From positions 1-36,914 of the IMG/VR virus record IMGVR_UViG_3300033146_000494: 36,914 bases of DNA; one strand, written 5' to 3'. The notes under the pieces are model-generated. The model was not told the origin of the DNA and searched no databases. It worked only from the letters and a program-made list of their open reading frames with translations. The DNA comes from a virus. Numbering within the stretch: position 1 is the stretch's first letter; every line of letters starts with the position of its first letter. This document shows positions 650-36,914 of this stretch, piece after piece. A program made the translations under genes and the position numbers.

Positions 650-985
650 ATGGATTTAACAAAACTTAAGAGCAAACTAGCAGAACCAGCACAGATACTA
701 ACTCAACAACAAACTTCAAACCACAACATAGGTTTTATAGAAGAACCACCAAGTTACCTAGAGGAGGATATACCTCAACTAAAGCTTGATATAGTAGACT
801 GGTGTAAGAAAGTGGTAGATACTGACAAAGGTAGAAAAATCCCATTACTAGAAGTTAAGGATATGAAAGATATAGCTAGTATCGTCACTCAAATAGAAAG
901 CTCATTCAACAAGAGAGATGAACCTACGCAGACTATAAATGTATTAGTTCAGAATATTATGCAGACAGTAGAGGACGATTGCTAA
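650..985 (+). CDS. terS: Putative small terminase subunit
   Basis: A 111-residue protein starting at ATG 650 behind AAGG (spacing about 9). The N-terminus is polar, the middle acidic (EEPPSYLEEDIPQL), and the C-terminal half carries helical segments (residues about 60-108). Identification rests mainly on position: first gene of the late operon, with TAATG overlap to the large terminase gene. Small terminases are poorly conserved DNA-recognition proteins that select packaging sites and feed DNA to the motor. No clear HTH is visible, so another packaging-associated role is possible. Confidence 0.6.
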   Translation: MDLTKLKSKLAEPAQILTQQQTSNHNIGFIEEPPSYLEEDIPQLKLDIVDWCKKVVDTDKGRKIPLLEVKDMKDIASIVTQIESSFNKRDEPTQTINVLVQNIMQTVEDDC

Positions 986-2526
986 TGAGTGATTTAACTA
1001 TAGAACAAGAGATATTTATAAGGACTAAATTATCCTCTAAGATGTGGAGAATGAATAACCTCTATACTATCAGAGATAAAGATGGTATAAAGAGAATATT
1101 AAAGCTTAATGCTTCTCAGAATAAAGTCCTCACAGACTTTAAACATAATAAGAAGATTATTTGTAAATCCCGCCAGCAAGGTATCAGCACTCTATATTTA
1201 GCTTACTACCTAGATGACTGTTTATTTAAAGAAGGGTTTCAAGCAGGAATACAATCTTACGGCAATGAAGAAGCTAAGAAACTACAGAAGAGAGCTGAAC
1301 TTATGTGGGACGACCTAGATGACTCTATTAAAGACTTACTAGGTCTTACTATGGTGAGTAACAACTCAAATGGTATGACATTCTCTAATGGTTCAGTTCT
1401 TAGAATAGGTAACTTTAGAGGTGATACATTACAAGCACTCCATGTTTCTGAACTTGGGAAGATTGCTAAGAAGTATCCTGATAAAGCTAAGGAGCTTAAG
1501 ACTGGAGCGTTCCAAGCTGTAGGTAAAAACAATAAGATAACTATAGAGTCTACAGCTGAGGGAAAAACTGGGTTATTTTATGAGATGTGGGAGAAGGCTA
1601 TACTAAAGAGAGATTTAGGTAAGAAACTTACAAGCTTAGACTTCCAGCCTATATTCCTAAGCTGGCTAGAAGACCCTGACTGTACACTTTATGAGAAAGT
1701 AGAGCCTGATAAAGAGCATATAGAGTATATAGACAGACTAGAAGCTGACCTCAAGATACAACTAACCAAAGAACAGATTAACTGGCTGTGTAGTAAGTTA
1801 GATGAGTTGGGAGATGACTTCGACCAAGAATACCCAGCAACACCTGATAGAGCGTTCGCTCAAAGTGTTGAGGGTACATACTTTAAGAAGCAGTATCACT
1901 CAATCATAAAAGAGAAGAGAGTTAAGCCAGTAGAGCATATAAAAGGTGTGAAAGTAGATGTAAGCTTCGACTTAGGGCTTAATGATGAGATGGTTCTACA
2001 CTTCGTGCAGGTTATAGATAACAGACCTGTAGTAATTAATGAATATCATAATACTGGTGAGGGCTTTAAGTTCTATATAGATATACTAGAGTTACTACAG
2101 AAAGAACACAGCTATGAGTATAATTGGTTTATACTACCTCACGACGCTAATGTTAGAGAGTTAGGTACTGGGCTAACTAGAATAGAAACACTTAGAAGTA
2201 TGGGTATGACTAAGATTAAACTCCTGCCTAAGTTACCTTTTATAGAGTCTATAAATGTTTGTAGAAGTTTGCTTAATGCTGTTATTATAAACTCTAAGTG
2301 TGAGAATACTATATTAGCGGTGCAGAACTACCGTAAGAAGTTTGATAAGACCTTAGGAGTCTATATGAATACTGATGTTCACGATATACACTCTAACTAT
2401 ATGGCATCTCTTAGGTATATGGCTCAAGGGCTAGGGTATGAAGCAGTTAAAGGTGTGAGAGCTAATAACATAAAGCGTAAAAAACATAAAAATATTAATA
2501 AATTTAATGGATTTAAGGTTATTTAA
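985..2526 (+). CDS. terL: Terminase large subunit (packaging ATPase and nuclease)
   Basis: This 513-residue motor pumps DNA through the portal and cuts it. I prefer ATG 985, overlapping the previous stop as TAATG, over the TTG two codons upstream. The ATPase domain has a Walker A variant KSRQQGIST (residues 61-69), a Walker B-like segment LHVSE (S155-E156) and the coupling motif IESTAEG (about 187-193). The C-terminal RNase H-like nuclease begins near DVSFDLGLNDE and ends in a basic tail. Length and motif order fit phage TerL. In the cell it docks on the portal, whose gene here lies 12 kb downstream instead of next door. Confidence 0.93.
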   Translation: MSDLTIEQEIFIRTKLSSKMWRMNNLYTIRDKDGIKRILKLNASQNKVLTDFKHNKKIICKSRQQGISTLYLAYYLDDCLFKEGFQAGIQSYGNEEAKKLQKRAELMWDDLDDSIKDLLGLTMVSNNSNGMTFSNGSVLRIGNFRGDTLQALHVSELGKIAKKYPDKAKELKTGAFQAVGKNNKITIESTAEGKTGLFYEMWEKAILKRDLGKKLTSLDFQPIFLSWLEDPDCTLYEKVEPDKEHIEYIDRLEADLKIQLTKEQINWLCSKLDELGDDFDQEYPATPDRAFAQSVEGTYFKKQYHSIIKEKRVKPVEHIKGVKVDVSFDLGLNDEMVLHFVQVIDNRPVVINEYHNTGEGFKFYIDILELLQKEHSYEYNWFILPHDANVRELGTGLTRIETLRSMGMTKIKLLPKLPFIESINVCRSLLNAVIINSKCENTILAVQNYRKKFDKTLGVYMNTDVHDIHSNYMASLRYMAQGLGYEAVKGVRANNIKRKKHKNINKFNGFKVI

Positions 2527-3288: not shown

Positions 3289-4497
3289 ATGAAAGTTCGT
3301 TATAACTCTCCTTTGGAGAGAAGAGGTTGGGTACAAGATGGGCTACTAGAGAAATCTTCTCAGTCCTTTTGGTTGCCTTATACTGGTAACACAGCAAACT
3401 CTATTGTCTATCAGCGTAATGATAGCTCTTGTGTGGCTGGTCAGACTGTAATCTTCGACTTTAGCTCATTCCTAACTGGTAAAGCTTATAAAGGTGATGA
3501 CTACTCTTATGGTAAGGGTGAGGTTAAGCGTAAGTTCTCTGATGGCATTAGTGTAGAAGAGATTTCTCACTATGTAGCTAATGGTTCAGCATTTGATGGC
3601 TGTATTATTGATGACCTAGAGTCAACTACTCACAGTGACTCTCGTAGTAAGCTCGGTGACTTGTTTATCAGACATAAAGACCAAAACATTTTCGATGTAG
3701 TTCAAGGGGCTTCTCTAGGTAATAATATTACTCATATCTTTAACCTTGGTGATGGGTTCACTTATGGTGATTTGAAAGCTATTGAAAATGCTGTTAAGCG
3801 TGGTAAAGGTCTTATGAAACCTACTGCTAAAGGTGCTGTAAGTAACACTAAAGCTATGCAAAGAAGCCCACTAAAAGCATTTAGAACTGAGGGTGGTCAG
3901 AGTATTTACCTAGTTATTGTAGATACCTATATGGCTACTGAGTTGGCTAATGACCCTAAGTATCAGACTATTATTAGTGATGCTGATGTTAGAGGTAACA
4001 ACAACCGCCTAATTGATGGTAAAATTGGTAGAATTGGTAATACAATTTATGTAGAGTCTCCAGTATTTGTAGGGGCTACCGAGGGTAGCGGGCAGTTCAC
4101 TAAGTTTGATAACACACCAGAACAAGCGGGACTTAGACGCTATGCTACCACCTCAACTGGTAAAGTAGTTTGGGAGGGTCAAGAGGATTTTAATAAAGTT
4201 GAAGAGCTTTTAGAAGAGGATACAACTAATGGTAACACTACCAATGCTGATGCTGGTAACGCTATTTACTCTCGTGGTGTTGTACTAGGTGCTGGTGCAG
4301 TACAACAAGCATTTGGTAAGATGCCCGACTATAAAGTTGAGTTCTCAGCATTTGAGAAAACTAGTGAGTCTATGCTTGAGTATTGGGCTAATGTTAAGAA
4401 AACTGTCCTAACCCGTGAAGCTGGTAGTAAGTATGTTGGTAATGTTGAAGATATTGACTTCTCAACTATTGCTATCGATATGAAACATAAAAACTAG
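3289..4497 (+). CDS. Major capsid protein, N4-gp56-like family
   Basis: 402 residues, ATG 3289 behind AAGGAT. It forms the icosahedral shell. The pattern fits the N4 gp56/DUF4043 capsid family: a segment with QSIYLVIVDTYMATELANDP (about 205-224), then IDGKIGRIGNTIYVESPVF (about 244-262), and a late glycine-rich stretch GVVLGAGAVQQAFGK. It sits directly after the scaffold-like gene and before two small head genes, as expected. Codon choice is a little richer in GGT, CGT and GCT than in the flanking genes, as often seen for the most abundant virion protein. Confidence 0.82.
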   Translation: MKVRYNSPLERRGWVQDGLLEKSSQSFWLPYTGNTANSIVYQRNDSSCVAGQTVIFDFSSFLTGKAYKGDDYSYGKGEVKRKFSDGISVEEISHYVANGSAFDGCIIDDLESTTHSDSRSKLGDLFIRHKDQNIFDVVQGASLGNNITHIFNLGDGFTYGDLKAIENAVKRGKGLMKPTAKGAVSNTKAMQRSPLKAFRTEGGQSIYLVIVDTYMATELANDPKYQTIISDADVRGNNNRLIDGKIGRIGNTIYVESPVFVGATEGSGQFTKFDNTPEQAGLRRYATTSTGKVVWEGQEDFNKVEELLEEDTTNGNTTNADAGNAIYSRGVVLGAGAVQQAFGKMPDYKVEFSAFEKTSESMLEYWANVKKTVLTREAGSKYVGNVEDIDFSTIAIDMKHKN

Positions 4498-4505
4498 GAG
4501 AAGTA

Positions 4506-4958
4506 ATGGCTGAGAATATTCAACGACATTATAAAAACAATGAGTGTAGAGTTGAGAAGATGGTAGGGGCTGAAATCTCAGCTCTTGACCAAGCTCCTCT
4601 AGCAGATGAAGAGTTTATCATTGCTGGTCTTATGGCTGGTACTGTAGTGCAAGGGGGTATGATTGCTGGCTTCGGTCTTGATGGTGATGTAGACCTAAAT
4701 ATTAAGATTGTAGATACTCAAGGTACTGTAATCTTGGAGTATAAAACTGATGCTGTAAGCGGTGATGAAGACCCTTATACAGTAAACAACACAAAAGCAG
4801 TAGGCTTTAGCGTACCTAGTACAAAGAACACACTACTATACCCAGCTAAGGTCATTATGAAGTTTACTGAGGACTTTACACAAGGTATTATCAAGCTTGG
4901 TGCTGATATGATTGACTTCAATGCTGTAACTGGCGATAGAGTGCCTGAGGTACTGTAG
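4506..4958 (+). CDS. Head-associated structural protein (decoration or completion candidate)
   Basis: 150 residues starting at ATG 4506 behind AGGAG. No family is recognised. After a polar N-terminus it is beta-rich and glycine-rich (IIAGLMAGTVVQGGMIAGFGLDGD, residues about 38-60, described by its repeated G), with an acidic middle. Strong translation signals and position between major capsid and adaptor suggest an abundant head protein such as a decoration or capsid-stabilising protein. This is inference from context. Confidence 0.55.
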   Translation: MAENIQRHYKNNECRVEKMVGAEISALDQAPLADEEFIIAGLMAGTVVQGGMIAGFGLDGDVDLNIKIVDTQGTVILEYKTDAVSGDEDPYTVNNTKAVGFSVPSTKNTLLYPAKVIMKFTEDFTQGIIKLGADMIDFNAVTGDRVPEVL

Positions 4959-4960
4959 TA

Positions 4961-5734
4961 ATGGTAAAGACTCTCTTAGAAGATATTAGAGTCTTTTTGC
5001 ACGATGTAGACGCTATTAGATGGACTGATAAGTCACTAATAAGACTCTTAGATAAGGCACAAAAGGATTTAGTTTTTAAGACTAAAGCACTAAAGGCTAT
5101 CTATAGAGTCGGACTTAGAGATGATAGAGAGACTGTAAAGCTTCCATCAGATATTGATAGGGTCACTAGAGTAACTTTAAATGGGTGCAAGCTTAATGGC
5201 AAAACTCATAGCGAGATTGATGATATTACTTGTGGTTGCGGGTGGGAGACAGCTACAGGTACTCCTAAGTATTTCATCTTAGATAAAACAAATAGAAACA
5301 GACTACGACTTTACCCTATACCTAACGGTACTACTATGATATTCTACCAAGAAACTTCACTAGGTTTATTTTCAGATATAGGCGTAGATAAGTATGGTAT
5401 TATAGTAGATATTAAAGGGTTCTCTGAGGTATCCACTGTAGGTACTACCACTGACATTGTATTATCTACTTTAGTATTAGAAGTGCATTATGACAAACAC
5501 CCTAGAACTCTTATAAACCTTAAAGATAAGATTGAGGTTGATGAGATGATGAAACAAGCCTTAGTACATTATGTATGTGGTAACGCTTTAAGAGCTGATA
5601 GGGACTCTAACAGCCGTTCATTAGGTGCAGAAGAGTTGGCTTTATATGACTTACTGGTTAAAGAGCTTAAGAAAAGCGTATCTAATAGCTATACTGATGG
5701 TACAGAATATGCTATTAAATTAAGAAAATTTTAA
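4961..5734 (+). CDS. Head-tail adaptor protein
   Basis: 257 residues. The layout is that of podophage adaptor proteins that bind beneath the portal: an N-terminal helical part (RWTDKSLIRLLDKAQKDL), a short hydrophilic stretch reading VKLPSDIDRVTRV (about 58-70), then PKYFILDKTNRNRLRLYPIP (about 103-122) and a C-terminal helix ending in an arm with EVDEMMKQALVHYVCGNAL. It lies two bases downstream of the previous stop. In the virion it should form a dodecameric ring linking portal to tail nozzle. Confidence 0.68.
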   Translation: MVKTLLEDIRVFLHDVDAIRWTDKSLIRLLDKAQKDLVFKTKALKAIYRVGLRDDRETVKLPSDIDRVTRVTLNGCKLNGKTHSEIDDITCGCGWETATGTPKYFILDKTNRNRLRLYPIPNGTTMIFYQETSLGLFSDIGVDKYGIIVDIKGFSEVSTVGTTTDIVLSTLVLEVHYDKHPRTLINLKDKIEVDEMMKQALVHYVCGNALRADRDSNSRSLGAEELALYDLLVKELKKSVSNSYTDGTEYAIKLRKF

Positions 5735-5743
5735 GGAATTACT

Positions 5744-6766
5744 ATGCGAGAGGTAACAGAGATTGTTAAAGCCTTAGGCGGTGTTGAGGACTTGCTATTA
5801 GATGCAACAGCACCCTCTACAGTTGAGCAGTTAAGAGCTGGTAGTCCAGTAGAGATTACTAAGATTAACTTAGATACTATCCCAGCTGAGAGTAGAATTA
5901 CCTACCCCGATTTTGTATCTGCTAGAGAGTATATTTTATCTCTAACTAACCCCAAATCTTATGTAGAAGCTACTACTATTGACGGTGGGTTTATTCTAAC
6001 AGTAGGTGATAGTGGTCTTACTTGGGACGGTGATGCTCCAGCTAATGACCAAATAGCTATGGCTCAAAGACTTAGTAATGATACTTACAGATGGATAGGT
6101 ATTGCTACCTTAGGTTCTGACAACTGGCAGTTTAGAGGTAGAGTAGCTGGTGATGGTGCTGTTAATGATAATGAGTTTGTAACTAAAGCTCAATTAGATG
6201 CTGTTAAATCTACAGCAGAAGATGGAGCTAATGTACAATCAGACTTTAATCAGACTGATAGCTCAGCTGACGACTTTATCAAGAATAAGCCTACAAGACC
6301 TAGTGGAGGCGACCTAGCGATGTTAGAGGCTGGTACAGATACTGACCTACGCTTATGGACGGCTAAGGACTTACACGATTTTTCGGAAGCTAATGGTTGT
6401 GGTACATTAGCTGGATTATTCTTCTACCACGACGATGCCACTACACAATTACCAATATATGAAACATTACCTGCTGAAACAGTTGCGTTAGAAGTATCGG
6501 AGAGTGATTTACTGCTATCATTTATAAACAACACAAACTCCAGTATTTTGGTTGAGGGTTTTGATGGGCATTATACCGCAATGCCTTCACTTAACAGCTA
6601 TTGTATATATGTCAATGATACTAAAGTAGCTGATTGTGTTCATATCACAGTAGATAGTCCAACTCCTACTGGAGGGTATGAGGTTTCTATGGGTAAGGGG
6701 GATATGGTTACTGTAACAACCAATTCTATAGATAATCAAGAAAAAATTAGATTTTCGGAGGTTTAA
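5744..6766 (+). CDS. Tail fibre-like protein
   Basis: 340 residues. The middle carries the motif SDFNQTDSSADDFIKNKP (about 167-184), a widespread linker in phage tail fibres, preceded by FVTKAQLDAVKS, a trimeric-fibre-like helix. The N-terminal 60 residues probably attach to the virion and the C-terminal 120 residues are beta-rich, as a receptor-binding tip would be. It opens a fibre block whose later members share fibre-type motifs. No intramolecular chaperone or depolymerase domain is seen. Confidence 0.7.
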   Translation: MREVTEIVKALGGVEDLLLDATAPSTVEQLRAGSPVEITKINLDTIPAESRITYPDFVSAREYILSLTNPKSYVEATTIDGGFILTVGDSGLTWDGDAPANDQIAMAQRLSNDTYRWIGIATLGSDNWQFRGRVAGDGAVNDNEFVTKAQLDAVKSTAEDGANVQSDFNQTDSSADDFIKNKPTRPSGGDLAMLEAGTDTDLRLWTAKDLHDFSEANGCGTLAGLFFYHDDATTQLPIYETLPAETVALEVSESDLLLSFINNTNSSILVEGFDGHYTAMPSLNSYCIYVNDTKVADCVHITVDSPTPTGGYEVSMGKGDMVTVTTNSIDNQEKIRFSEV

Positions 6767-6768
6767 TT

Positions 6769-7038
6769 ATGGGTAAAAAAACTATAGGGACTGTAATAAT
6801 CCCTAAAGGTACAAGCTGGACTAAATTGTGTGAAGATGCACACTTTATTCAGAATGTAGATAATAGAGTAGTGTATTTCTATTTTAGCGACACACAGCCC
6901 GATGACAGCATCGGTACTAGAGATTGCCATATACTACGGCAGGAGCAAGATGATAATTATGTTAATAGCGACGGCGATACTATATGGGTTAAGCAACAAC
7001 CACATTTTACGCAATCTCTTGTCATTACTCAGGTATGA
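6769..7038 (+). CDS. Small fibre-block protein of unknown function
   Basis: 89 residues, ATG 6769 behind GGAGG. The sequence is beta-rich and rather acidic (YFYFSDTQPDDSIGTRDCH), and no domain is recognised. It lies between the tail-fibre-like gene and the first paralogous fibre protein, so it may be a fibre tip, a cap or a fibre chaperone. Its end is adjacent to the start of the next gene, suggesting coupled translation. Confidence 0.6.
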   Translation: MGKKTIGTVIIPKGTSWTKLCEDAHFIQNVDNRVVYFYFSDTQPDDSIGTRDCHILRQEQDDNYVNSDGDTIWVKQQPHFTQSLVITQV

Positions 7039-7042
7039 TGAG

Positions 7043-7639
7043 ATGTTTAATAGAGTAGTAAAAGGAGGAACTGTGATAGTTCAAGATTTAAATAACCCAA
7101 AAACAGATGAGGTGCTAAGTACAGCAGGTATAGCTGAATTGCACTTAGGTAAGGTAGTAAGACACTCTCACCTTACATTTATAGATACTCCAACTGCACT
7201 TATCAGTCAGCAGGATTGGAATAAGTTTGGGGACTTCTACTTAGATGTGGAAGCACTAGAAGATGACTCAGCCTTCGAGATTTCTGTTAATATGTCATTA
7301 GGTAATTTCATAGATACAGATGCACAACCTAAGGATTTTGCAGTTACTTTGTTTGAGGGTACAGCTGGTGCTGAGAATGTTCTAAAGGCATTATCAAATG
7401 ATGGGAGAGATAGATGTATTTGTCAGCCTACAAGCTCCTCTGAGGACTCAACACTTAATGGTCAGATAAGTTTTACTATTACTGTACCTAGTACACATTC
7501 AGCTGGTGATACTTTACGCTTCGCACCTCGTATGAAAAAGATTAGTAGTGGGGATAGAGAGCTTTATCTTAATGATGATTATGATGGAGTTATCTTCCCA
7601 GTATCTACAATTTCTATTAAGGAGATTAGCAATGTTTGA
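7043..7639 (+). CDS. Fibre/receptor-module protein, paralogue 1
   Basis: 198 residues from ATG 7043; upstream in-frame starts would overlap the preceding gene deeply and align worse with its paralogue, which also begins MF. Near the N-terminus it has TVIVQDLNNPKTDEVLSTAG, the 'DL...LS..G' motif common in fibre proteins. The rest is a beta-rich domain ending in ISFTITVPSTHSAGDTLRF and a short tail. The next gene encodes a clear paralogue. Role inferred: virion-surface binding protein. Confidence 0.66.
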   Translation: MFNRVVKGGTVIVQDLNNPKTDEVLSTAGIAELHLGKVVRHSHLTFIDTPTALISQQDWNKFGDFYLDVEALEDDSAFEISVNMSLGNFIDTDAQPKDFAVTLFEGTAGAENVLKALSNDGRDRCICQPTSSSEDSTLNGQISFTITVPSTHSAGDTLRFAPRMKKISSGDRELYLNDDYDGVIFPVSTISIKEISNV

Positions 7640-8237
7640 TGCTAGTGAGATGGTAGGTAGTGGTGGAGGTAGTACAGTCACTATCGTACAAGATTTAAGC
7701 GACCCACAACCTAATGAGGTGCTAAGTACTGAAGGTATTAACAACCTCAATCACGGTGGAGGTAGTAGCATACTTGTTGGTATTACTACTATGAGTTTTA
7801 ATGCAGAAACCAATAAGACAATAAATACATCAGCTTGGAGAGCATTTGAGGATTTTGAGATTGAGGTTACAGCTGTAGAAGATAACTCCTTACTTGAAAT
7901 CTCAGTAACTATGTGGTTAGGTGAGGTTGATAACTCTAATAAAGGTGGTTATTATTATGTGAGTAATATAGATATTAATGGTGCATTAGTAACAGGTAGT
8001 GGTGATTATGGTGTAGGTATGTTACAGCTAGTATCAGCCAAAACTTCTGATGATGCTTCAGCACTTATAAATATAACTATACCACACACTCACTCAGCTG
8101 GAGATACATTAACTATCAAACCAGTTCTTAAACGCACTGATGGTAGTAGGTCTGTTAGGCTAAATAAATCTCAATCAGATAGTATAACTATCCAAGGTAC
8201 AAGTTTTATTACTGTACGAGAATATAAAAGTAGCTGA
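7632..8237 (+). CDS. Fibre/receptor-module protein, paralogue 2
   Basis: 201 residues from ATG 7632 behind AAGGAG, overlapping the preceding stop. It shares with its upstream neighbour the N-terminal fibre motif (TIVQDLSDPQPNEVLSTEG), a central EDNSLLEISVTMWLGE (paralogue: EDDSAFEISVNMSLGN) and a C-terminal NITIPHTHSAGDTL (paralogue: TITVPSTHSAGDTL). It is glycine-rich near the start (GSGGGS). Tandem duplication followed by divergence is the simplest explanation; different receptor specificities are possible. Confidence 0.66.
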   Translation: MFDASEMVGSGGGSTVTIVQDLSDPQPNEVLSTEGINNLNHGGGSSILVGITTMSFNAETNKTINTSAWRAFEDFEIEVTAVEDNSLLEISVTMWLGEVDNSNKGGYYYVSNIDINGALVTGSGDYGVGMLQLVSAKTSDDASALINITIPHTHSAGDTLTIKPVLKRTDGSRSVRLNKSQSDSITIQGTSFITVREYKSS

Positions 8238-8238
8238 T

Positions 8239-8634
8239 ATGGGTAAGAGAGCTATGATAGATACTACAGCGATTTATGTATTATTAGTAAGTTCTGTAGC
8301 GTGGTTCTTAGCCATTATAGATATAGATAAAGCTGGTATATTTGGTAGTATGCTTTATCTATTTGCACAGCACGAGCGTGGTAAGGCTTATGACTCCTTA
8401 GCATACTCTATACCAGTGCTAAGTCTTTTTGGTTATACTGGGAGTTGGGTAGTTACTCACATTATAGTAGTAGACTTCTACACTACCGCTAGTAGTGGTA
8501 TGACACAGTTTATGAGTGCTGTTTTCGGCTTTATAGCGTATGATGCTATTCTTATGATGGCTGGTAAAACCGAGTCTATGGTTAAAGCTATTACTGATAT
8601 GTTAGTACAAGCACTTAAAAGGAAGATAAAATGA
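8239..8634 (+). CDS. Multi-pass membrane protein, holin candidate
   Basis: 131 residues with about three or four hydrophobic segments: residues about 9-28 (IYVLLVSSVAWFLAIIDI), 52-77 (around SIPVLSLFGYTGSWVVTHII) and 93-112 (MSAVFGFIAYDAILMMAG), then a basic C-terminus ending KRKIK. It opens the lysis cassette, overlaps the next membrane protein by ATGA and lies upstream of spanins and amidase. Size, topology and location fit a holin that permeabilises the inner membrane, but the neighbour is an equal candidate. Confidence 0.6.
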   Translation: MGKRAMIDTTAIYVLLVSSVAWFLAIIDIDKAGIFGSMLYLFAQHERGKAYDSLAYSIPVLSLFGYTGSWVVTHIIVVDFYTTASSGMTQFMSAVFGFIAYDAILMMAGKTESMVKAITDMLVQALKRKIK

Positions 8635-8909
8635 CTATAAATCAATTTATGCTTGCAGTAATTCTCCTTATGTGTGAGATATTATTTGAGGCTTATATCT
8701 CACGCAAATCTGATGATTATAGCGTTAAGACACATATAAAATCTCATATATTGATGCTTATTATTAGTATTTGTTCTATGATGATTTACTTCCTATCGGG
8801 AGATTTTTATGTAATTATTATTATGTTTGTAGTATATATATGGCACCTTAATAAAGAAGCTAGGACTATGTGTAAGAAACCTTGTGAGTTGGCTTATTAT
8901 GGTAGATAG
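8631..8909 (+). CDS. Small membrane protein, holin or antiholin candidate
   Basis: 92 residues with three hydrophobic helices: about 5-23, 41-58 and 62-78, separated by a charged loop (SRKSDDYSVKTHIKSH) and followed by a basic, cysteine-containing tail. The start overlaps the previous gene as ATGA. Two adjacent membrane proteins before spanins suggest a holin with an antiholin partner, or one holin and one accessory membrane protein. The sequence alone does not say which. Confidence 0.55.
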   Translation: MTINQFMLAVILLMCEILFEAYISRKSDDYSVKTHIKSHILMLIISICSMMIYFLSGDFYVIIIMFVVYIWHLNKEARTMCKKPCELAYYGR

Positions 8910-9156
8910 AGTAATTTACATAAGCGGTGCAGTAGCCTTATTAGGTGTTATAGGTTATATTATCTTGCTAAAAAGTATTAACACTACTTTAACAGAAGAT
9001 AACACTAAGATTGAAGCTATTAGCCAAACTATCAAACACAACACTAAGGTAGAGCTGTTTGAGGATAAGTACTCTCGAACAACTGCTAATGAAACTAAGG
9101 AGGTGGTAAATGCTGAAGATTATAGTATCGGTATTAATACTATTATTATTTACTAA
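8899..9156 (+). CDS. i-spanin (Rz-like)
   Basis: 85 residues from ATG 8899; a GTG at 8884 would add five residues. It has one N-terminal transmembrane helix (about 4-24, YISGAVALLGVIGYIILL) followed by a charged, helical periplasmic part. The o-spanin gene starts inside it at 9110, the classic overlapping Rz/Rz1 arrangement. The product spans the inner membrane and pairs with the outer-membrane lipoprotein to fuse the two membranes at lysis. It is shorter than lambda Rz, and identification rests on topology and arrangement. Confidence 0.66.
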   Translation: MVDRVIYISGAVALLGVIGYIILLKSINTTLTEDNTKIEAISQTIKHNTKVELFEDKYSRTTANETKEVVNAEDYSIGINTIIIY

Positions 9157-9445
9157 CTGCTCTAGGGTACAACCAGCACCAATTAAGATGCCTTTATTAA
9201 GACCTATTAAAGTGACCATACCAAAACCCAATAGGCTTAAAGTAGATTTTGTAGTAGATGTTAACGGCTCTATCACACTAGATAGTAAAGTGTTTAAAGT
9301 GATTATAAAGAAATTAGGTGATAAGAATAGACTTATTTATAGGTTAGATAAATCTATAACTTATCTTAACTCTCAAATAAGAGATTACAATATATTAAGG
9401 ATTGATTATGAAAATAGCTTTAGTAGTGGGACACAGACAAAGTAA
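9110..9445 (+). CDS. o-spanin (Rz1-like lipoprotein)
   Basis: 111 residues, ATG 9110 preceded by the strong AAGGAGG. The N-terminus is a lipoprotein-type signal (MLKIIVSVLILLLFTNC), with C17 as the likely lipidated cysteine; the lipobox is not canonical. The following stretch is proline-rich (QPAPIKMPLLRPIKVTIPKP), typical of o-spanins, and a helical C-terminus follows. It overlaps the i-spanin gene by 47 nt in another frame and the amidase gene by 38 nt. Presence of an o-spanin implies a Gram-negative host. Confidence 0.72.
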   Translation: MLKIIVSVLILLLFTNCSRVQPAPIKMPLLRPIKVTIPKPNRLKVDFVVDVNGSITLDSKVFKVIIKKLGDKNRLIYRLDKSITYLNSQIRDYNILRIDYENSFSSGTQTK

Positions 9446-9935
9446 ACAAGGTGCTGAAGGGTCAGCAGGCATTAGTGAGTTTGAGTATTGGTCACAGTTT
9501 GCTAAGGATTTAGCAGATACTATTAATTCTCAACACGATGTTAAAGTTTATTTCAGACGCGATGAGGTTGGTTACTCAACTAATATGAAACTGCTACATA
9601 AGCAACTAGATGCTAATGCTATTGATGTAGCTATCGAACTTCATTTTAACGCTAGTACATCTAATGCTACTGGTTGTGAGGTACTTTACGCAACTCCTAA
9701 GGCTGAACAACTAGCAACAAGCTTGTATGACAATTTAGCAATACTGGGTAACACTAGAAGAGGTGTTAAGCACATTACACAGCAACAAAGAGGTTATAAA
9801 TTTTTAGCTGGTGGTAACTCTATTAACATCTTAACAGAGCCATTCTTCGCTACTGAACAGATTTCATTTATGTTTGGTACTACTGAATATCAGCTAATGC
9901 TTAGTGCCTATACTAAATTCATTCAGGAGCTGTGA
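9408..9935 (+). CDS. Endolysin, N-acetylmuramoyl-L-alanine amidase (Amidase_3 type)
   Basis: 175 residues from ATG 9408, chosen because AAGG lies seven bases upstream; a TTG two codons earlier is less likely. It cleaves the amide bond between MurNAc and the stem peptide. Zinc ligands and catalytic residues are visible: VVGH (H9), SEFEYW (E24/E26), IELHFNA (H79) and TEPFF (E144). The single domain fills the whole protein, with no signal peptide and no cell-wall-binding module. It is therefore holin-dependent, in keeping with the membrane proteins upstream. Confidence 0.9.
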   Translation: MKIALVVGHRQSKQGAEGSAGISEFEYWSQFAKDLADTINSQHDVKVYFRRDEVGYSTNMKLLHKQLDANAIDVAIELHFNASTSNATGCEVLYATPKAEQLATSLYDNLAILGNTRRGVKHITQQQRGYKFLAGGNSINILTEPFFATEQISFMFGTTEYQLMLSAYTKFIQEL

Positions 9936-10024
9936 TGTTTGTATTATGCCCTAAATGTGGTTACAGAACACTAGATGGTAAATGCCCGTGTAACTCTAAG
10001 AATAAATTAAAGGCTAAGAAATGA
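9935..10024 (+). CDS. 29-residue zinc-ribbon microprotein
   Basis: The ATG at 9935 shares its A with the amidase stop (TGATG), and the stop overlaps the next start as ATGA (10021-10024). The peptide begins MFVLCPKCGY and continues to KCPCNSKNK, so it has a CxxC and a CxC pair, enough for one zinc site, with a basic C-terminus. Tight coupling to both neighbours argues that it is a real gene. A role in binding DNA, RNA or protein is possible; nothing more can be said. Confidence 0.65.
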   Translation: MFVLCPKCGYRTLDGKCPCNSKNKLKAKK

Positions 10025-11619
10025 AAATAAACAACTGGGTTGGAGGTATGAACACATTAGTATCTCCTCACAATATACAACCTAGTGAGGGTATTGTTGT
10101 TGAAAACTCCCATATAAACACTACTTCTCTACGCTCCTTAAAGGGTAGAGAGTTTAATCGTGACCTTGAGGGTAACTATTTTAAGTATTTTAAAGCTGGT
10201 GATAGTGTTATTAGCTCTAGTCGTAAAGCCACTTTTGCTGAGTATAGAGATGTTATGTATATGCTAGATGGTAATGCCCCTACAAAAACACTAGCTGATG
10301 GGTCTACTTATCCTATAGGTATTACACCACCAAGCACTATATTATCTATAGAGTCAGATGATGAAGATGTTAACACCGTCCTACAGACAGTATTAGGAGA
10401 TGTTGATATAGATGAGGTTGTTCAAGCTCTTTTAGATGATACTATAGAACCCCCTAAGACACTTACTGGTACTTATAGATATGTATATACTTATTATAAT
10501 AAACCACATAACATCGAAAGTGTTCCTAGTAGACTTAGTAACAAGCTTGAAGTAGATAATGAGTCTATTAAGGTATCTGATATAGTCTTAAGTGATGACC
10601 CTCAGACTACTCATATTAGATTGTATCGAATTGGTGGTACATTAAATCAATATTCTTTAGTTGCTGAGTTGGATAATGTTTCTCAGCATTATGTAGATAG
10701 TGTTACTGATTGGGGTATTGCGGGTAGTTGGGTATTAGACTCCTTCCATAATTATAAGCCTTTAGGCAAGCTAGAAAATCTAACATTAACTTACTCTATG
10801 TTGTTTGGTAGTGTTGGTGATAAGTTGTATTACTCTATGAAAACCAAGCTTGAGTATTGGGATAAAACACACTTCATAGATTTTGATAGTGAAATCACAG
10901 GTATAGGGGCAACGCAGAATGGTATCTTAGTGTTTACTAAGTTCTCTACTTATGTGATTACTGGTAATGACCATACTACATTTAGTAAGTTTCTATTAAG
11001 TGATGAACAGGGGTGTATTAATCATCATACTATAGCTTATGTAGATAATACACTTATATGGGTATCTACTGATGGTGTGTGTTCATCTAACGGAGGTAAT
11101 ATTACATTAGTTACTAAGGAAAAACTTAGGGATTTTGATTTGGTAACTACCAATGCTGTGGTGTATGATAATGCCTACTATCTAACAACTGATAGCTCTA
11201 TGCTTGTTATTGATTTTAGCTTGGGTACTAACATTAGAACCATTAATTATCAAGGTTATATAGAGAGATTTAACGATGAGCTGTATATTGCTGAGAATAA
11301 TAAACTATATAAAATGTTCAGCGGTGAAAAACTTAGATTTACATTTAGAAGTGGGTTACTTACTTTTGATGGGTTGAGTGTATATAAGAACTTTAAGAAT
11401 GTGTTCATAGCTTATAGTGGTGATATTAAACTTAAGGTGTATCTATACTTATCTAAAGGTAGGACGCTAATCTTAGATAAGCAACTAGATAAATCTAAAA
11501 GATTTGAAGAGCTTAAGGTAAACTCAAATCTCTCAGGCTATGCTATCCAATATCTAGTTAGTGGTATAGGCAGTGTTAAAGAGATTGATATAGAGCAGGT
11601 AAGCAAATATGCGGACTAA
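10021..11619 (+). CDS. Tail nozzle / packaged-DNA stabilisation-like protein
   Basis: 532 residues. It begins MKINNWVGGMNTLVSPHNIQ, resembling podophage tail proteins that close the portal channel after packaging and form the nozzle (P22 gp10 type), and is rich in beta strands and tyrosine throughout with repeated short blades, as in a beta-propeller. Typical size for such proteins is 450-550 residues. It is downstream of the lysis cassette and upstream of ejection proteins, so it belongs to the tail module. Family assignment is by overall look and context, without a diagnostic motif. Confidence 0.55.
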   Translation: MKINNWVGGMNTLVSPHNIQPSEGIVVENSHINTTSLRSLKGREFNRDLEGNYFKYFKAGDSVISSSRKATFAEYRDVMYMLDGNAPTKTLADGSTYPIGITPPSTILSIESDDEDVNTVLQTVLGDVDIDEVVQALLDDTIEPPKTLTGTYRYVYTYYNKPHNIESVPSRLSNKLEVDNESIKVSDIVLSDDPQTTHIRLYRIGGTLNQYSLVAELDNVSQHYVDSVTDWGIAGSWVLDSFHNYKPLGKLENLTLTYSMLFGSVGDKLYYSMKTKLEYWDKTHFIDFDSEITGIGATQNGILVFTKFSTYVITGNDHTTFSKFLLSDEQGCINHHTIAYVDNTLIWVSTDGVCSSNGGNITLVTKEKLRDFDLVTTNAVVYDNAYYLTTDSSMLVIDFSLGTNIRTINYQGYIERFNDELYIAENNKLYKMFSGEKLRFTFRSGLLTFDGLSVYKNFKNVFIAYSGDIKLKVYLYLSKGRTLILDKQLDKSKRFEELKVNSNLSGYAIQYLVSGIGSVKEIDIEQVSKYAD

Positions 11620-14566: not shown

Positions 14567-16393
14567 ATGGTAGATATTAAACACTTACAAGATACTTTTA
14601 AGTATGGATATGACCAATATCTACCTAGTAGAATTAAAGCTCAGCGTATAGAGGATTTATTCCATAATAAACAATATACTCAAGACCAGCTAAATGCTAT
14701 TAGAGAGGTAGGTCAAAGTCCCGAAACTTTTAATGTTATTAGACTTTTTACTAGACAGCTACTAGGTTATTATAGTCAGGTTATTAATACAACTAAGGCT
14801 GTACCTAAACAACATCAGGATATAGCTGTGGCAGAACTTATGAGTGATATTATTAGCTATGTTGATAGAACTAATAACTTTTCAGAGATGGGAGATGCTA
14901 TTAAGCGTGATGGATTTATTAGCGGGTTATTTTGTATATATACCGATGTGGAGAATATATTAGATTATGAGGGTTACCCCAAAGTTGATAACTTTGGTAG
15001 ACCTTTATACAAGATTGTTAAAGAGCATATCCCTTCTTATCAGCTTGTATTAGACCCTATGAGTACTAAGTCTGATTACTCAGACGCTAGATTTATTCAT
15101 AGATTTAAATGGATACCTAGTGAGGTTGTCACTAAGCTCTTTGGTGAGGGTGTTATAGATAGATTAAATGCTTATCACAACCATTTAAATATAGAAGAGG
15201 GGGAATTTGAGTTTAGATTTGAGGATAGATTTCAAGGTAGATATAAAAACTTTGATAATTATCTAGTGGTTCACTCAGTAACAGAAGATGAGAAAGGTAA
15301 TATGTGGAGTACTTACTGGAGTGGTGATGAAATTTTAGATAGTAAGAAAGTAACTTATAAAGATGTCAAGTATCCTTATAGAGTTGTTAAGCTTCAAGAT
15401 ACTAACACAGCTGAGTATTATGGTATTTTTGAAGATATAGAACACCCACAAAATGCTATTAATCAAGCTATTCTACAGATACAGTTAGGGGTTAACAGTA
15501 ATAAGGTTATGGTTCAAGATGGAGCTGTAGATGATATATCAGAGTTTACTAAGGCATATTCTCGTGTTAATAGTGTAATACCAGTAAACTTTATAGATGG
15601 GGTCAGAGATATTAGTTCTCGTAATGATATTCAACAGCAGTATATCATTATTGACAGAGCGTTTGATAGAATACAGAGAATGTTAGGTATTAATGATAGC
15701 TTCCTAGGTAATGCTTTTGCTAGTGATAGTGGTAGGAAGGTTAAGCTTCAACAAGGCTCTACTATTATGGCGTTGAGATATATTGACACTAAACTTACTT
15801 TATTTTATAAGCTTAATGGTTGGGACACACTTAACTTAATTAAGCAGTATTTCAAGGCTAATCAACTACTTAGAATAGCTGATGAGGATAAAGGAGATAG
15901 ATGGGTAGAGCTTAATAAGCCTCTAATCAATCCAATATCTCAGCGACCTATTTATGATGAGATATTAGACCCAGCTAGTGGAGAGCCTATGAAAGATGAA
16001 TATGGTAATACATTAGTAGTACCTTTAAATGTTCCTTATACTGACCTAGAGTTTAGTGATTTGGATATAGAGATACAAACTGTTAGTTATAATGATGAAG
16101 ATGAGAAAAATCAAGTGCTTACTGAAACTATTCTGAATGGGGCTGTGGGTCAGATGCTAATGTCAGTAAACCCTAAGGGATATGCCCAAGTAGCTAGTAT
16201 GAACATTAGAACTATGAAAACTAGATACGCTAATGATATTGCTAAAATACTCGATGAAACAGCTCAAATGCTTACACCTCAACCGCAGATGCAAGATACA
16301 TTAGGTAGTGCTGGAGGTGCTAGTAGCCAAGTAGGCGGTCAGCCTAACACACAAACAACAACAGATAGTTTAAGTCAAGGAGCGTTACAATAA
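14567..16393 (+). CDS. Portal protein, P22-like
   Basis: 608 residues, within the usual range for podophage portals. Visible landmarks include an N-terminal helical region with SPETFNVIRLFTRQLLGYYSQ-type helices (about 45-65), a wing region with SYQLVLDPMSTKSDYSDARF (about 159-178), and FEDIEHPQNAINQAILQIQLG (about 286-306), typical of the crown and stem region. It ends in a glutamine- and glycine-rich tail. A dodecamer would form the DNA entry vertex. Its gene lies 12 kb from the terminase and is flanked by ejection proteins, an uncommon order. Confidence 0.85.
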   Translation: MVDIKHLQDTFKYGYDQYLPSRIKAQRIEDLFHNKQYTQDQLNAIREVGQSPETFNVIRLFTRQLLGYYSQVINTTKAVPKQHQDIAVAELMSDIISYVDRTNNFSEMGDAIKRDGFISGLFCIYTDVENILDYEGYPKVDNFGRPLYKIVKEHIPSYQLVLDPMSTKSDYSDARFIHRFKWIPSEVVTKLFGEGVIDRLNAYHNHLNIEEGEFEFRFEDRFQGRYKNFDNYLVVHSVTEDEKGNMWSTYWSGDEILDSKKVTYKDVKYPYRVVKLQDTNTAEYYGIFEDIEHPQNAINQAILQIQLGVNSNKVMVQDGAVDDISEFTKAYSRVNSVIPVNFIDGVRDISSRNDIQQQYIIIDRAFDRIQRMLGINDSFLGNAFASDSGRKVKLQQGSTIMALRYIDTKLTLFYKLNGWDTLNLIKQYFKANQLLRIADEDKGDRWVELNKPLINPISQRPIYDEILDPASGEPMKDEYGNTLVVPLNVPYTDLEFSDLDIEIQTVSYNDEDEKNQVLTETILNGAVGQMLMSVNPKGYAQVASMNIRTMKTRYANDIAKILDETAQMLTPQPQMQDTLGSAGGASSQVGGQPNTQTTTDSLSQGALQ

Positions 16394-23786: not shown

Positions 23787-23877
23787 TAATAGCTCCTAAA
23801 TATTTAGCTCTTTCTAACCACATAAATGCAACTACACTACCTACCCGACTGCCTTTATAAATCACTTTGTTACTCAT
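23773..23877 (-). CDS. 34-residue microprotein between ThyX-like and deaminase genes
   Basis: The ATG at 23877 overlaps the ThyX-like stop as ATGA, and the stop lies 14 bases inside the deaminase-fusion gene. The peptide starts MSNKVIYKGSRVGSV and continues with FMWLERAKYLGAI. The overlap at both ends suggests translational coupling in the operon. No domain is recognised. Confidence 0.6.
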   Translation of the reverse strand: MSNKVIYKGSRVGSVVAFMWLERAKYLGAINGRV

Positions 23878-24677
23878 TTGGTCATCTCCTTTAATTGCTC
23901 TACAAACTCTCGGGTTTGGGTTTGTGTATGTTTAGTTGTTCGCTCATTAACAAAATGCTGATAAGCATACGGCGATACGGTATCAAGACCTATAGTAAAT
24001 GGTCTAATTCTCAACATATCAATACCTCTACTATAAACCCCTCTATCTTTTACTTGTAATACCTCTCTCATAAACCGCTCCAAATCAGCAGGTGAGTTAT
24101 TCTCAACAAAGTGACTCCAAGCATCTTCAGTACCATACTCAATAATCAACCTCTTATCGGTTTTTCTTTCATTTACTACATCATCAAAATAACTTACCCA
24201 CTCCTCAGGATACCAATAACCTAAATTAACATCAGTAAATCTGGCTGAGTGGCTGACAAACTGTATCTGAGTATGTGTTCTTATCTGCTGATAAATAAAG
24301 TAAGGGACTTCTGCGTGATACACTTCGTATTTATCGAAATCTATATACTTAAGCCACTCTTCAATACCATCTAAGGGTATTAATAACTCTCGCAGTGATG
24401 TTCTATACATACCTCCGAAGAAGTACCCAAACAGTTTACCTCTATCCAATCTCAAACCTTCAATATAAGCAGGCAAAGTACAAGGCACAAATGATAGTAA
24501 ATTACTGGGTGTATCACCATAACTCTCTTTCATAAGTCTTTGTAGTAAGTTAAGTGGTTTACTGCTAGGCTCTTTTCTGTTATATACAACTCTAGCAACT
24601 TCTGCTAGGTACTCAGCTACTGATAACTTTGTTATCTCTTTTGGTGGTGTTATCTTTGTAATTGTATATTTACGCAT
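23874..24677 (-). CDS. thyX: ThyX-like flavin-dependent thymidylate synthase
   Basis: 267 residues. The central region VPYFIYQQIRTHTQIQF, then SHSARF (R133, H135, S142, S144, R146), corresponds to the ThyX signature, although the usual RHRx7S reads here as RTHx6SxS. The C-terminal NERTTKHTQTQTREF resembles the conserved basic and glutamine segment of ThyX. It would make dTMP from dUMP with folate and FAD, next to the deaminase that produces dUMP. The altered motif lowers confidence in catalysis. Confidence 0.7.
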   Translation of the reverse strand: MRKYTITKITPPKEITKLSVAEYLAEVARVVYNRKEPSSKPLNLLQRLMKESYGDTPSNLLSFVPCTLPAYIEGLRLDRGKLFGYFFGGMYRTSLRELLIPLDGIEEWLKYIDFDKYEVYHAEVPYFIYQQIRTHTQIQFVSHSARFTDVNLGYWYPEEWVSYFDDVVNERKTDKRLIIEYGTEDAWSHFVENNSPADLERFMREVLQVKDRGVYSRGIDMLRIRPFTIGLDTVSPYAYQHFVNERTTKHTQTQTREFVEQLKEMTK

Positions 24678-27633: not shown

Positions 27634-28374
27634 TTATGATGCATCTATAACATCATCTTCTGCTGTATCTGGAATAGGTGTAGCAGAAGATAAATCAAGC
27701 TCCTCACCCTCATCGATAACATCATCTTCTGCTGTATCTGGAATAGGTGTAGCAGAAGATAAATCAAGCTCCTCACCCTCATCGATAATATCAACATCGA
27801 CTTTGCCAGTGTATTTCACTAATGTAATTAACTGAACAGCGTTAAGATAGAGTGACACACCCTTAGTCAGACCTGCGTCTGTTTTGACCTCATACACTTG
27901 GGCTGTACCATAGATACGCCCTCTTGACCCTTTACCAATACTCCAATCAGCGTTATTAACTTCATTAGTAATCTCTTTACCTCTACCTGTTACAATATCT
28001 ACTACTTTAGGTCTCACCTTACCATTAATTTTAAAAGTAGTGTTTGTTTTAAAATTTACTACGACTCTACCACTAGGGACTTTAAGCACCTCTTCTGTCT
28101 TAGGGTCGATAGTTCCATCAGGACAATCTACCATAATCTGCTTAATACCGTTAGAAGCAGGTAGTCCTTTAGTACCAGTCTTAGTTTTGTACTCATTCCA
28201 CACATCGTCAATCTGCTTCTTAATATACTTAAACTCTTCTGAGTTCTCATCAAACTCGATAGATGCTAAGAATTGCATTTTAGGTGGTTTACCCTCACCT
28301 GCTATATTCTTACCCTCACCAGTGATATATACCCAGTTTAAATCTCCAGTTAATGTTTTAATTGTCTTTGCCAT
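27634..28374 (-). CDS. ssb: Single-stranded DNA-binding protein, Enc34-like
   Basis: 246 residues. The core, with SGRVVVNFKTNTTFKINGKV (about 108-127) and IGKGSRGRIYGTAQVYEV (about 152-169), then GVSLYLNAVQLITLVKY, matches the phage ssDNA-binding family that includes Enc34 SSB, an OB fold related in role to T7 gp2.5. It coats replication intermediates. The acidic C-terminal tail, which in SSBs contacts polymerase and helicase, is carried twice in tandem (period 23 residues). It is the first gene after the structured stem-loop region. Confidence 0.82.
   Translation of the reverse strand: MAKTIKTLTGDLNWVYITGEGKNIAGEGKPPKMQFLASIEFDENSEEFKYIKKQIDDVWNEYKTKTGTKGLPASNGIKQIMVDCPDGTIDPKTEEVLKVPSGRVVVNFKTNTTFKINGKVRPKVVDIVTGRGKEITNEVNNADWSIGKGSRGRIYGTAQVYEVKTDAGLTKGVSLYLNAVQLITLVKYTGKVDVDIIDEGEELDLSSATPIPDTAEDDVIDEGEELDLSSATPIPDTAEDDVIDAS
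27652..27789. repeat. 69-bp tandem duplication in the SSB tail
   Basis: Bases 27652-27720 and 27721-27789 are identical except for the last position. Each unit encodes DEGEELDLSSATPIPDTAED plus three residues, in frame. The near identity indicates a recent expansion. Confidence 0.95.
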
Positions 28375-33287: not shown

Positions 33288-33312
33288 TATATATAATCCT
33301 CCAAATTTGAAT

Positions 33313-33338
33313 AAGGTTATTCTAATATAAATAACCTT
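33313..33338. promoter_or_regulatory. Inverted repeat upstream of the HTH-like gene (operator or leader hairpin)
   Basis: AAGGTTATT and AATAACCTT, nine bases each, flank an eight-base AT-rich loop, 26 bp upstream of the ATG at 33287. A promoter is expected here for the replication operon, but I see no clear -35 box. Confidence 0.45.
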
Positions 33339-33520
33339 TGATAAATATTAATAATATTCGATAACTATCTATAGCGAGGTGACTGCTAGCATAAAATAGA
33401 TTAGGATAGACTTAGTAAAATTCTTTGAAAATTTTTAAATTTTTGTTGCATTGAATGCTATATACAATATACACTTTTTTGGTAACGGTTATACATTTTG
33501 TATATTCGTCACGATGCCCG

Positions 33521-33704
33521 CAAACCACGCTATATAGGGCTTTAGGATTTTCTATATACATTTATACAATTTGTACACTTCTTTTTCAGTATTTACTTTT
33601 TCCATTACTACGAATTTACTATATTATTATTATTATTATTATTAGTGTATAAATGTATAAATAACCATAATTAACACCCTCTAAGCCCTATATAGCGTGG
33701 TTTG
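33521..33704. repeat. Nested inverted repeats in the gene-free region
   Basis: The outer arms (33521-33542 and 33683-33704) are 22 bases and perfectly complementary; the left arm begins CAAACCACGC. Inside, 33555-33568 (TATACATTTATACA) is complementary to 33646-33659. An AT-rich core with ATT repeats lies between. This layout suits an origin melted by an initiator, or a recombination site. Confidence 0.85.
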
Positions 33705-34309
33705 AGGCACTTCTTAGTCTTGTATATATAACTGTATATAGCAGTAGCTAGTAGTGTATAAAGTGTGATACAGGCTATTAACTTTACTGAAATATAGGGT
33801 AACATATAAGCAAAACTTGAGCCTTTACGAAACTTCATTGAATTTACTTATTAATACACTTCAGTTTACTTTAAGTTTATTATGGTATGTAACTTAATTA
33901 AACATCAATTTTTCTGTTTAATTCCAAAATCTTAACAGAATTATATATATATATGGACTTTAATACCACTTAATTAGCTCTATAGCCAATTATAATAATA
34001 ACTAAATAAGCGTCTTAAACCTCTACCTATACCAAAGGGTTACCTAACAATAGTTAAGCGGTATTTACCACCGTTCTGTGTGTTTAAATCCTATATATAA
34101 CTTAATTTTCACCGCACCACCCTCAAAAGTGTATATCACTCAATACAACAAATCAAAAAATGAACACTAATACTCTTGAGAAGCTTGGCACTCTAAAGGC
34201 TCCATTAAAGTGCTATAAGTATTTAATAAGTGTCTAAGTATCCCTTATTAATTTCTAGTTAAGTGTATACTGAGGATAAGAGTCTTAGGGGGGGGGTGTA
34301 GGATATATC

Positions 34310-34372
34310 GGTAACGGTCTATATCCGTTACTATTTGGTATAAGTTGCTACTGGTGTATTAGTAGCAACTTA
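34310..34372 (-). terminator. Twin hairpins after the last gene of the early region
   Basis: A 12-base-pair perfect stem (34341-34352 with 34361-34372, arm TAAGTTGCTACT) begins four bases past the stop at 34377 for leftward transcription. A second stem (GTAACGG with CCGTTAC, 34311-34331) follows. Neither is followed by a T run, so termination would have to be unusual or factor-assisted; RNA stabilisation is an alternative. Confidence 0.45.
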
Positions 34373-34376
34373 GATA

Positions 34377-35015
34377 TTATGCCCATTCAACCCCGTAAGA
34401 TTTATAGTAATTTTCTGAGAACTTTGTGTCCTCTATCTCTAAGGGTTCACCCACTAGAGGTATTAAGTCATTAATGCTGGTAAGTGTGAGGATATAACTA
34501 GCTATCTCCCCTGTGATATTATCCATAATAGAAACTCCATTATATCCTCTTTTTAGATTTGGAGTCTCGTTAATGCCCTCCACTTGCTCATTATAATACT
34601 CCTTAGCCTCTCTGTAGGTCTTGAAGCTTTTTTTTGTTTCGTTAACCCTCTCCAAATCTTTTATATCGCTTATCCAGTCATACCCTTCAGTCTCTTCATT
34701 AAAGTAATGAAAATCCTGAAATGTAAACACTTCGAAAGTGTTAGTGAGGCATTTAAGTCGTCTCAGATACTCCTTAATCTCTCCCTCTTCTAAGGTATCC
34801 TTAATATCAATTTCATATGTATATGTATATAAAGTCGCTATAACGGTATCGGTATAATCATAAAGGTTTAGCACTACACGCTCCTTAGTGCTTGAGAGTG
34901 TATATAATAGTCGGGTACTGTCTTGGATACCTTTGCCATAGGGTGAGAACCCCCAATCAAACCACCCTATATAGTATTGGCTCCTTGTGGGTTGGTTTGA
35001 GAGATAATCCCTCAC
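34377..35015 (-). CDS. Early hypothetical protein rich in aromatic residues
   Basis: 212 residues if the GTG at 35015 is used, overlapping the preceding gene by 59 nt. The N-terminus has QYYIGWFDWGFSPYGKG, and the protein is rich in Y, F, E and T throughout. No domain is recognised. The long overlap and the lack of an ATG leave the true start uncertain. It is the last gene before the hairpins and the gene-free region. A host-takeover function is inferred from position only. Confidence 0.65.
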   Translation of the reverse strand: MRDYLSNQPTRSQYYIGWFDWGFSPYGKGIQDSTRLLYTLSSTKERVVLNLYDYTDTVIATLYTYTYEIDIKDTLEEGEIKEYLRRLKCLTNTFEVFTFQDFHYFNEETEGYDWISDIKDLERVNETKKSFKTYREAKEYYNEQVEGINETPNLKRGYNGVSIMDNITGEIASYILTLTSINDLIPLVGEPLEIEDTKFSENYYKSYGVEWA

Positions 35016-35361
35016 CCTCTTCTGTCTCCCAAAGTTCTAGGTTCTCCTCTGTCCCGATGAAAGTTGCGTCAAAACTTTCCGACTCTGCGTCAATCGCGTC
35101 ACCGTTTGGGAGCAGGTAGCAATCTTCCCACGCGTCTGCCATCATCTCGCCATATGTTGGGTACTCTTCACCATCAACAAACCACGCTGTGGCGTTTTGA
35201 TCGTCTTTGATATTTTCAAGGTAGTCACAACCTACCCCCACCCTCTCCCCGTTGATCATCTTCTCCACAACAATCTCGAAAAGGCTACTTATTCGTGTTG
35301 TGTCGCTCTCTTTTGCAAGGAGTCCATCGCGTACTTTGATAAATGTTTCTATTGTTGCCAT
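34957..35361 (-). CDS. Very acidic early protein, possible DNA mimic / anti-restriction protein
   Basis: 134 residues with about 31 acidic and only about 10 basic residues by hand count, net charge near -20. The start carries the early leader AAAGGATAACAAAATG. DNA-mimic anti-restriction proteins such as ArdA or Ocr are small and similarly acidic, but I see no ArdA motif, so this is inference. The gene is visibly richer in G+C and in CGC/GCG-type codons than its neighbours, and contains the only two GATC sites I could find in the window. Recent acquisition is likely. Confidence 0.7.
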   Translation of the reverse strand: MATIETFIKVRDGLLAKESDTTRISSLFEIVVEKMINGERVGVGCDYLENIKDDQNATAWFVDGEEYPTYGEMMADAWEDCYLLPNGDAIDAESESFDATFIGTEENLELWETEEGEGLSLKPTHKEPILYRVV

Positions 35362-35457: not shown

Positions 35458-35904
35458 TTAGCGATTAACACCACCTCCCCACTCTCTAATACTTCTGTCA
35501 CCCCTTTTAAGGGTGATACGGGCTTGAAGCTCTAAGGCTTCAGTGCTTGTAAAATCATCAAGTCCAACAAATTCCGTAGCTAGATTTTTAATCAATTTTT
35601 GGGTCTTATTCCAGACCGCTAAGGCTTGCTTAGATGCTCCCTTAGACTTACCCTTACTCACTGTCATCTCTTCCACTGGATAATACGCCTCCATATATCT
35701 ACACCACGCCTTTTTAAGACTCCCGTCTTCGTTAAGTATATCGGGGTGAGCCTTAGCTCTCGAGGTTATGCTCATATTAAAAGCCTCCTCCATTAAATTT
35801 GTAAGCTTTACCTTAGCTTTATCGGTTAACTTATGGATTTTACCAATATTTACTAATTCCTCTCTCATTTGTTCCTGCCGTTTAATTTTCTCTAAGTTTG
35901 TCAT
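35458..35904 (-). CDS. Early hypothetical protein with a possible C-terminal frameshift
   Basis: 148 residues, lysine- and glutamate-rich, starting at ATG 35904 behind AAAGGATAACAAA. The middle has KKAWCRYMEAYYPVEEMT (about 64-81) and a KGKSKGASKQ patch; no family is recognised. A single-base change in the G run at 35501-35504 would carry the frame into a coding-like extension (TEVLESGEVVLIAKDEVTE) that stops at 35427, giving about 158 residues. The annotated stop is at 35460-35458. Position suggests a takeover gene. Confidence 0.7.
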   Translation of the reverse strand: MTNLEKIKRQEQMREELVNIGKIHKLTDKAKVKLTNLMEEAFNMSITSRAKAHPDILNEDGSLKKAWCRYMEAYYPVEEMTVSKGKSKGASKQALAVWNKTQKLIKNLATEFVGLDDFTSTEALELQARITLKRGDRSIREWGGGVNR

Positions 35905-36778: not shown

Positions 36779-36914
36779 TTGTTAATCCTTTTATCTTATT
36801 AGTTAGATAAGCTTTGAGCATTTCAATATCATTCTTAAAATAAAAATCACTCAAAATATTAAAGCCTATAGCATTTATTTTATCTACTATTTTATTATAG
36901 GAAATATCAGTAAA
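36750..36914 (-). CDS. Early hypothetical protein, C-terminal part (continuation of 1-243)
   Basis: This is the 3' part of the junction-spanning gene. The frame enters at 36914 within the terminal repeat, passes through 36801 and stops with TAA at 36752-36750, 29 bases inside the kinase-like gene. Joined to 1-243 it gives a product of about 97 residues ending in a basic, aromatic tail (NGKTYIRNY). The overlap suggests translational coupling with the kinase-like gene. Confidence 0.75.
   Translation of the reverse strand, partial: FTDISYNKIVDKINAIGFNILSDFYFKNDIEMLKAYLTNKIKGLTNGKTYIRNY
36801..36914. repeat. Terminal direct repeat, right copy
   Basis: These bases are identical to 1-114; see the left copy. 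Confidence 0.95.

Follow-up and report, generated by a model that had tools for sequence, protein, structure and literature searches.

Elimination of nine palindromic sites from a podovirus genome that keeps its only two GATC in an acidic gene of probable foreign origin

Avoidance of restriction sites is widespread in phages. It is strongest in non-temperate phages and essentially confined to the sites of orthodox Type II systems (Rusinov et al. 2018; PMC6286503). For GATC, avoidance linked to mismatch repair is discussed for phiX174 in another study (PMC5014478). Among the described phages that we checked, T7 (6 GATC observed/141 expected), VPMS1 (3/86), and PH1 (3/83) have eliminated GATC and no other palindrome of our panel, and KF-1 and Amaethon have eliminated none. 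Multiple losses are found in Bacillus phage phi29, with three sites (GGCC, CGCG, and GGNCC), and in the first 40 kb of Staphylococcus phage K, with four (GATC, GGCC, GCNGC, and GGNCC).

The phage described here is unrelated to phage K and phi29 and to their hosts' lineages. Like the virulent dsDNA phages analyzed by Rusinov et al. (PMC6286503), it has eliminated palindromic Type II sites; it may also be non-temperate. It shares the elimination of GATC with T7, VPMS1, and PH1, which differ from it in losing nothing else. Nine palindromic sites have been lost, entirely or nearly so, from its genome, whereas the classical phages that we checked have lost at most four (phage K). It illustrates, in strong form, a survival strategy that is already known; it is not a new system.

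A KF-1/VPMS1/PH1-like podovirus

We analyzed the whole 36,914-nucleotide stretch of IMG/VR record IMGVR_UViG_3300033146_000494, hereafter the window. The genes for terminase, portal, capsid, DNA polymerase I, primase/helicase, and DNA ligase resemble those of KF-1, VPMS1, and PH1, and on this similarity we classify the phage as a short-tailed podovirus of this group. The features concerned are the following:

1-36914, no strand: whole phage genome, analyzed by Markov counts, simulations, and synonymous permutation; nine sites depleted
979-2526, plus strand: terminase large subunit, on which the grouping with Vibrio VPMS1, Pseudoalteromonas PH1, and Edwardsiella KF-1 is based
14567-16393, plus strand: portal protein, of which 42 IMG/VR relatives served for comparison

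A sequence of 100 bp or more is directly repeated at the two ends (1-100 and 36815-36914; offset about 114 bp), in keeping with a complete genome that would be circularly permuted or terminally redundant. Neither a methyltransferase nor an integrase was found among the 30 ORFs compared with Pfam, no tRNA or Rfam RNA was found in the window, and the DNA polymerase used as a query retrieved no relatives among viral contigs.

Several other features of the genome were recorded. Two successive overlapping ORFs at 6902-8237 have similar sequences (EVLSTAGIAELHLG and EVLSTEGINNLNHG) and are apparently tandem paralogues among the structural genes. The C-terminus of the single-strand DNA-binding protein (27634-27800) carries the acidic segment VIDEGEELDLSSATPIPDTAEDD twice. 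At 23874-24677, where relatives have an annotated thymidylate synthase, lies a gene for a divergent ThyX-like protein that matches Pfam Thy1 below the cut-off. A gene-poor region of about 1 kb (33288-34376) separates the primase-side genes from the early genes.

Palindromic sites missing from the genome

Exact counting confirmed that GATC occurs only twice in the window, at 35199 and 35254, as a preliminary description of this DNA had concluded from a scan by eye. Its rough figure was a hundred sites expected by chance. A second-order Markov model of the whole window predicts 119.4 GATC, and 20 simulated genomes contained 119.9 on average and never fewer than 97. When synonymous codons were permuted within genes, 81 GATC were expected in coding sequences compared with the 2 observed; protein content and codon usage are therefore not the cause of the depletion.

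The depletion of GATC is real, but the preliminary description was incomplete in that GATC is not the only site concerned. Five other tetramers are eliminated, CATG (1 observed/87 expected), ACGT (0/44), GCGC (0/35), GGCC (0/18), and CCGG (0/14), together with the degenerate sites GCNGC (0/41), CCNGG (0/38), and GGNCC (0/28). The six tetranucleotides with an observed/expected ratio below 0.1 are all palindromes (chance probability about 2e-8). Other palindromes are found at their expected frequency, such as AGCT (357/372), TTAA (439/423), and likewise TCGA. We also found no copy of GGATG (0/30), GATATC (0/13), TCTAGA (0/22), or GAGCTC (0/15), and a lowered number of GAWTC (4 observed, 42 expected). 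Compositional bias is a stricter measure than observed/expected counts. With elimination defined as a bias below 0.1 and an expected count of 15 or more (PMC6286503), seven sites qualify: GATC, CATG, ACGT, GCGC, GGCC, GCNGC, and GGNCC. The single CATG of the genome lies within the terminase gene:

1441-1444, no strand: sole CATG, inside the terminase large subunit gene

Related phages were compared by means of 30 portal-bearing loci of 10 kb or more. GATC is eliminated in eight of these loci, and no other panel palindrome is eliminated in any of the 30. Viral contigs such as G002 (1/127), L026 (0/51), L037 (0/28), and L041 (0/32) are depleted of GATC, and the other palindromes are not eliminated from them. 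Loss restricted to GATC is therefore common in this podovirus clade. The loss of nine sites was observed in none of the relatives compared, and among all genomes of this small comparison, T7, phi29, and phage K included, the window is the most depleted.

What removed these sites? An AT-rich genome is expected to contain somewhat fewer GC-containing words, but the Markov model, the simulations, and the synonymous permutation all predict 80-120 GATC, and the counts of AGCT and TTAA are normal. These controls refute base composition or codon usage as the explanation, and a by-product of either is practically out of the question. Avoidance of GATC driven by Dam methylation in the host and mismatch repair by MutHLS would agree with the GATC-only loss in T7, VPMS1, PH1, and G002 and with phiX174, reported as lacking GATC (PMC5014478). 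However, this process would touch GATC only, and CATG, ACGT, GCGC, GGCC, CCGG, GCNGC, CCNGG, and GGNCC are eliminated as well. We rejected it as the sole cause and consider it quite unlikely as the explanation for the window, though it may add to the loss of GATC in the relatives. The methylation-dependent GATC system put forward in the preliminary description would, on its own, leave the same eight sites unexplained.

Long exposure to restriction, also proposed there, is well supported by the pattern, with the difference that many Type II specificities and not GATC alone would be involved. Very probably, long selection has purged the genome of about nine Type II recognition sites, and the gene that still carries GATC, described below, is a recent import from which this site has not been purged. 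We infer that the agent is the set of Type II enzymes of the host. The host population would carry about nine specificities, GATC among them, and long selection would strip their recognition sites from the phage, so that incoming purged DNA would offer these enzymes few or no sites to cut. Avoidance can evidently extend to nine palindromic specificities within one 37-kb genome. The set of missing sites is also a prediction of the restriction enzymes of the phage's host.

The acidic gene and its relative in a P1-like phage

Both GATC lie, as had been noted, in a very acidic gene of higher GC content, here identified as a minus-strand ORF. The features of this region are:

34957-35361, minus strand: acidic gene, 134 aa, net charge -21, GC 0.47; probable recent horizontal import
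35199-35202, no strand: GATC site 1, codons GAT CAA (Asp-Gln), synonymously removable
35254-35257, no strand: GATC site 2, codons ATG ATC (Met-Ile), synonymously removable
35059-35190, minus strand: 132-bp block identical to positions 1781-1912 of contig IMGVR_UViG_3300026484_000003 (L004)
35458-35904, minus strand: adjoining gene, conserved in related podoviruses

With a GC content of 0.47 (against 0.36) and a GC3 of 0.49, the acidic gene ranks first among the 39 genes of the window, the other 38 ranging from 0.29 to 0.42 and from 0.18 to 0.41, respectively. It encodes the protein with the most negative charge per residue and is the sole gene with GATC. No homologue was found in the available stretches of related podoviruses carrying the adjoining gene, and searches of phage and plasmid collections and of genome contigs with the protein gave no match. 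The only relative found is encoded by the 60-kb contig L004 (81% protein and 87% nucleotide identity), whose terminase is similar to P1 PacB and which is otherwise unrelated to the window phage. The GC and GC3 values, the exclusive presence of GATC, and the identity with an otherwise unrelated phage, complete over 132 bp, support the earlier suggestion of a late arrival.

The two homologues are uneven in their similarity. The 132-bp block is devoid of even synonymous changes, whereas the other 88 codons show 40 differences, 15 synonymous and 25 non-synonymous. An identical block next to a diverged remainder indicates that sequence was probably exchanged recently between the acidic gene and its L004 homologue. 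Both GATC are located in the diverged 5' part, and the corresponding positions of L004 are free of GATC; the direct donor has therefore not been found. In L004, GATC is not avoided (242 observed/287 expected). Avoidance affects ACGT (7/111), GGCC (3/77), GGNCC (0/72), and CCNGG (6/82), and GCGC and GCNGC are also strongly depleted. The acidic gene probably comes from a gene pool common to the window phage and a P1-like phage, the latter avoiding many of the sites lost from the window and leaving GATC alone. A gene imported from such a pool would tend to lack the shared sites and could contain GATC, in agreement with the acidic gene, in which GATC is present and the other sites are not. The gene was probably acquired recently, and selection would not yet have removed its two GATC. 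One synonymous change is sufficient to remove either of them, which makes them look like unpurged leftovers, and we regard them as such and not as functional sites. This suggests a way of dating, in which a gene still carrying a forbidden site in a purged genome would be a recent import; the sites absent from such a gene hint at the restriction environment of the donor pool.

Alternatively, the two GATC might be retained because they serve a function, such as switching an early gene by methylation, which could account for their position 55 bp apart in the same gene. The probability that both fall in this gene by chance is about 1e-4, or about 1% if any one gene of such size counts. Nevertheless, the GATC density of the gene is ordinary for its composition (2 observed, 1.3-1.6 expected), the sites lie within codons, and the homologue has neither of them, which makes a functional role highly improbable. 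According to another reading, the product of the gene acts against restriction, as a DNA mimic or in some other way, and enables its phage to tolerate a few GATC. The preliminary description had likewise proposed that the gene may itself counter restriction. Like T7 Ocr and the ArdA DNA mimics, the protein is small, strongly negative (-21 in 134 aa), and early, and its L004 homologue lies within 9 kb of genes for a C5-methyltransferase and a methylase-helicase fusion. No sequence relationship to Ocr or ArdA was detected. The protein has no match in Pfam above the cut-off, in PHROGs, or in PADLOC, and no acceptable sequence match to a solved structure in the PDB; an assignment to DUF2525 (E 0.006, below the Pfam cut-off) was not accepted. 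Its structure model has a mean pLDDT of 48.6, too unreliable for fold comparison. Furthermore, the L004 homologue is on the opposite strand from the methyltransferase genes, and tolerance should in time let GATC appear elsewhere in the genome, where there is none. Charge and neighborhood being all that speaks for it, an anti-restriction role is unsupported, and we judge this reading unlikely. A broader version appears very unlikely. In it, the protein represents an anti-restriction family not described before, which virulent podoviruses and P1-like phages exchange with each other; once the gene has arrived, selection against GATC would be relaxed, and avoidance would be beginning to erode.

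Returning to recent import from a shared pool, the avoidance profile of L004 is the most similar to that of the window among the 31 compared, but the similarity is modest (Spearman 0.56-0.58) and nearly equaled by the portal relative L014 (0.54-0.56). That the window phage and L004 share a host is therefore only a suggestion. A search of genome contigs with the P1-type terminase yielded a single remote match, in Mucispirillum (22% identity). In L004 itself, at positions 3307-10506, the C5-cytosine methyltransferase gene adjoins one for a 1,819-aa N6-methylase/SNF2-helicase fusion, and the pair is possibly a DarB-like anti-restriction module.
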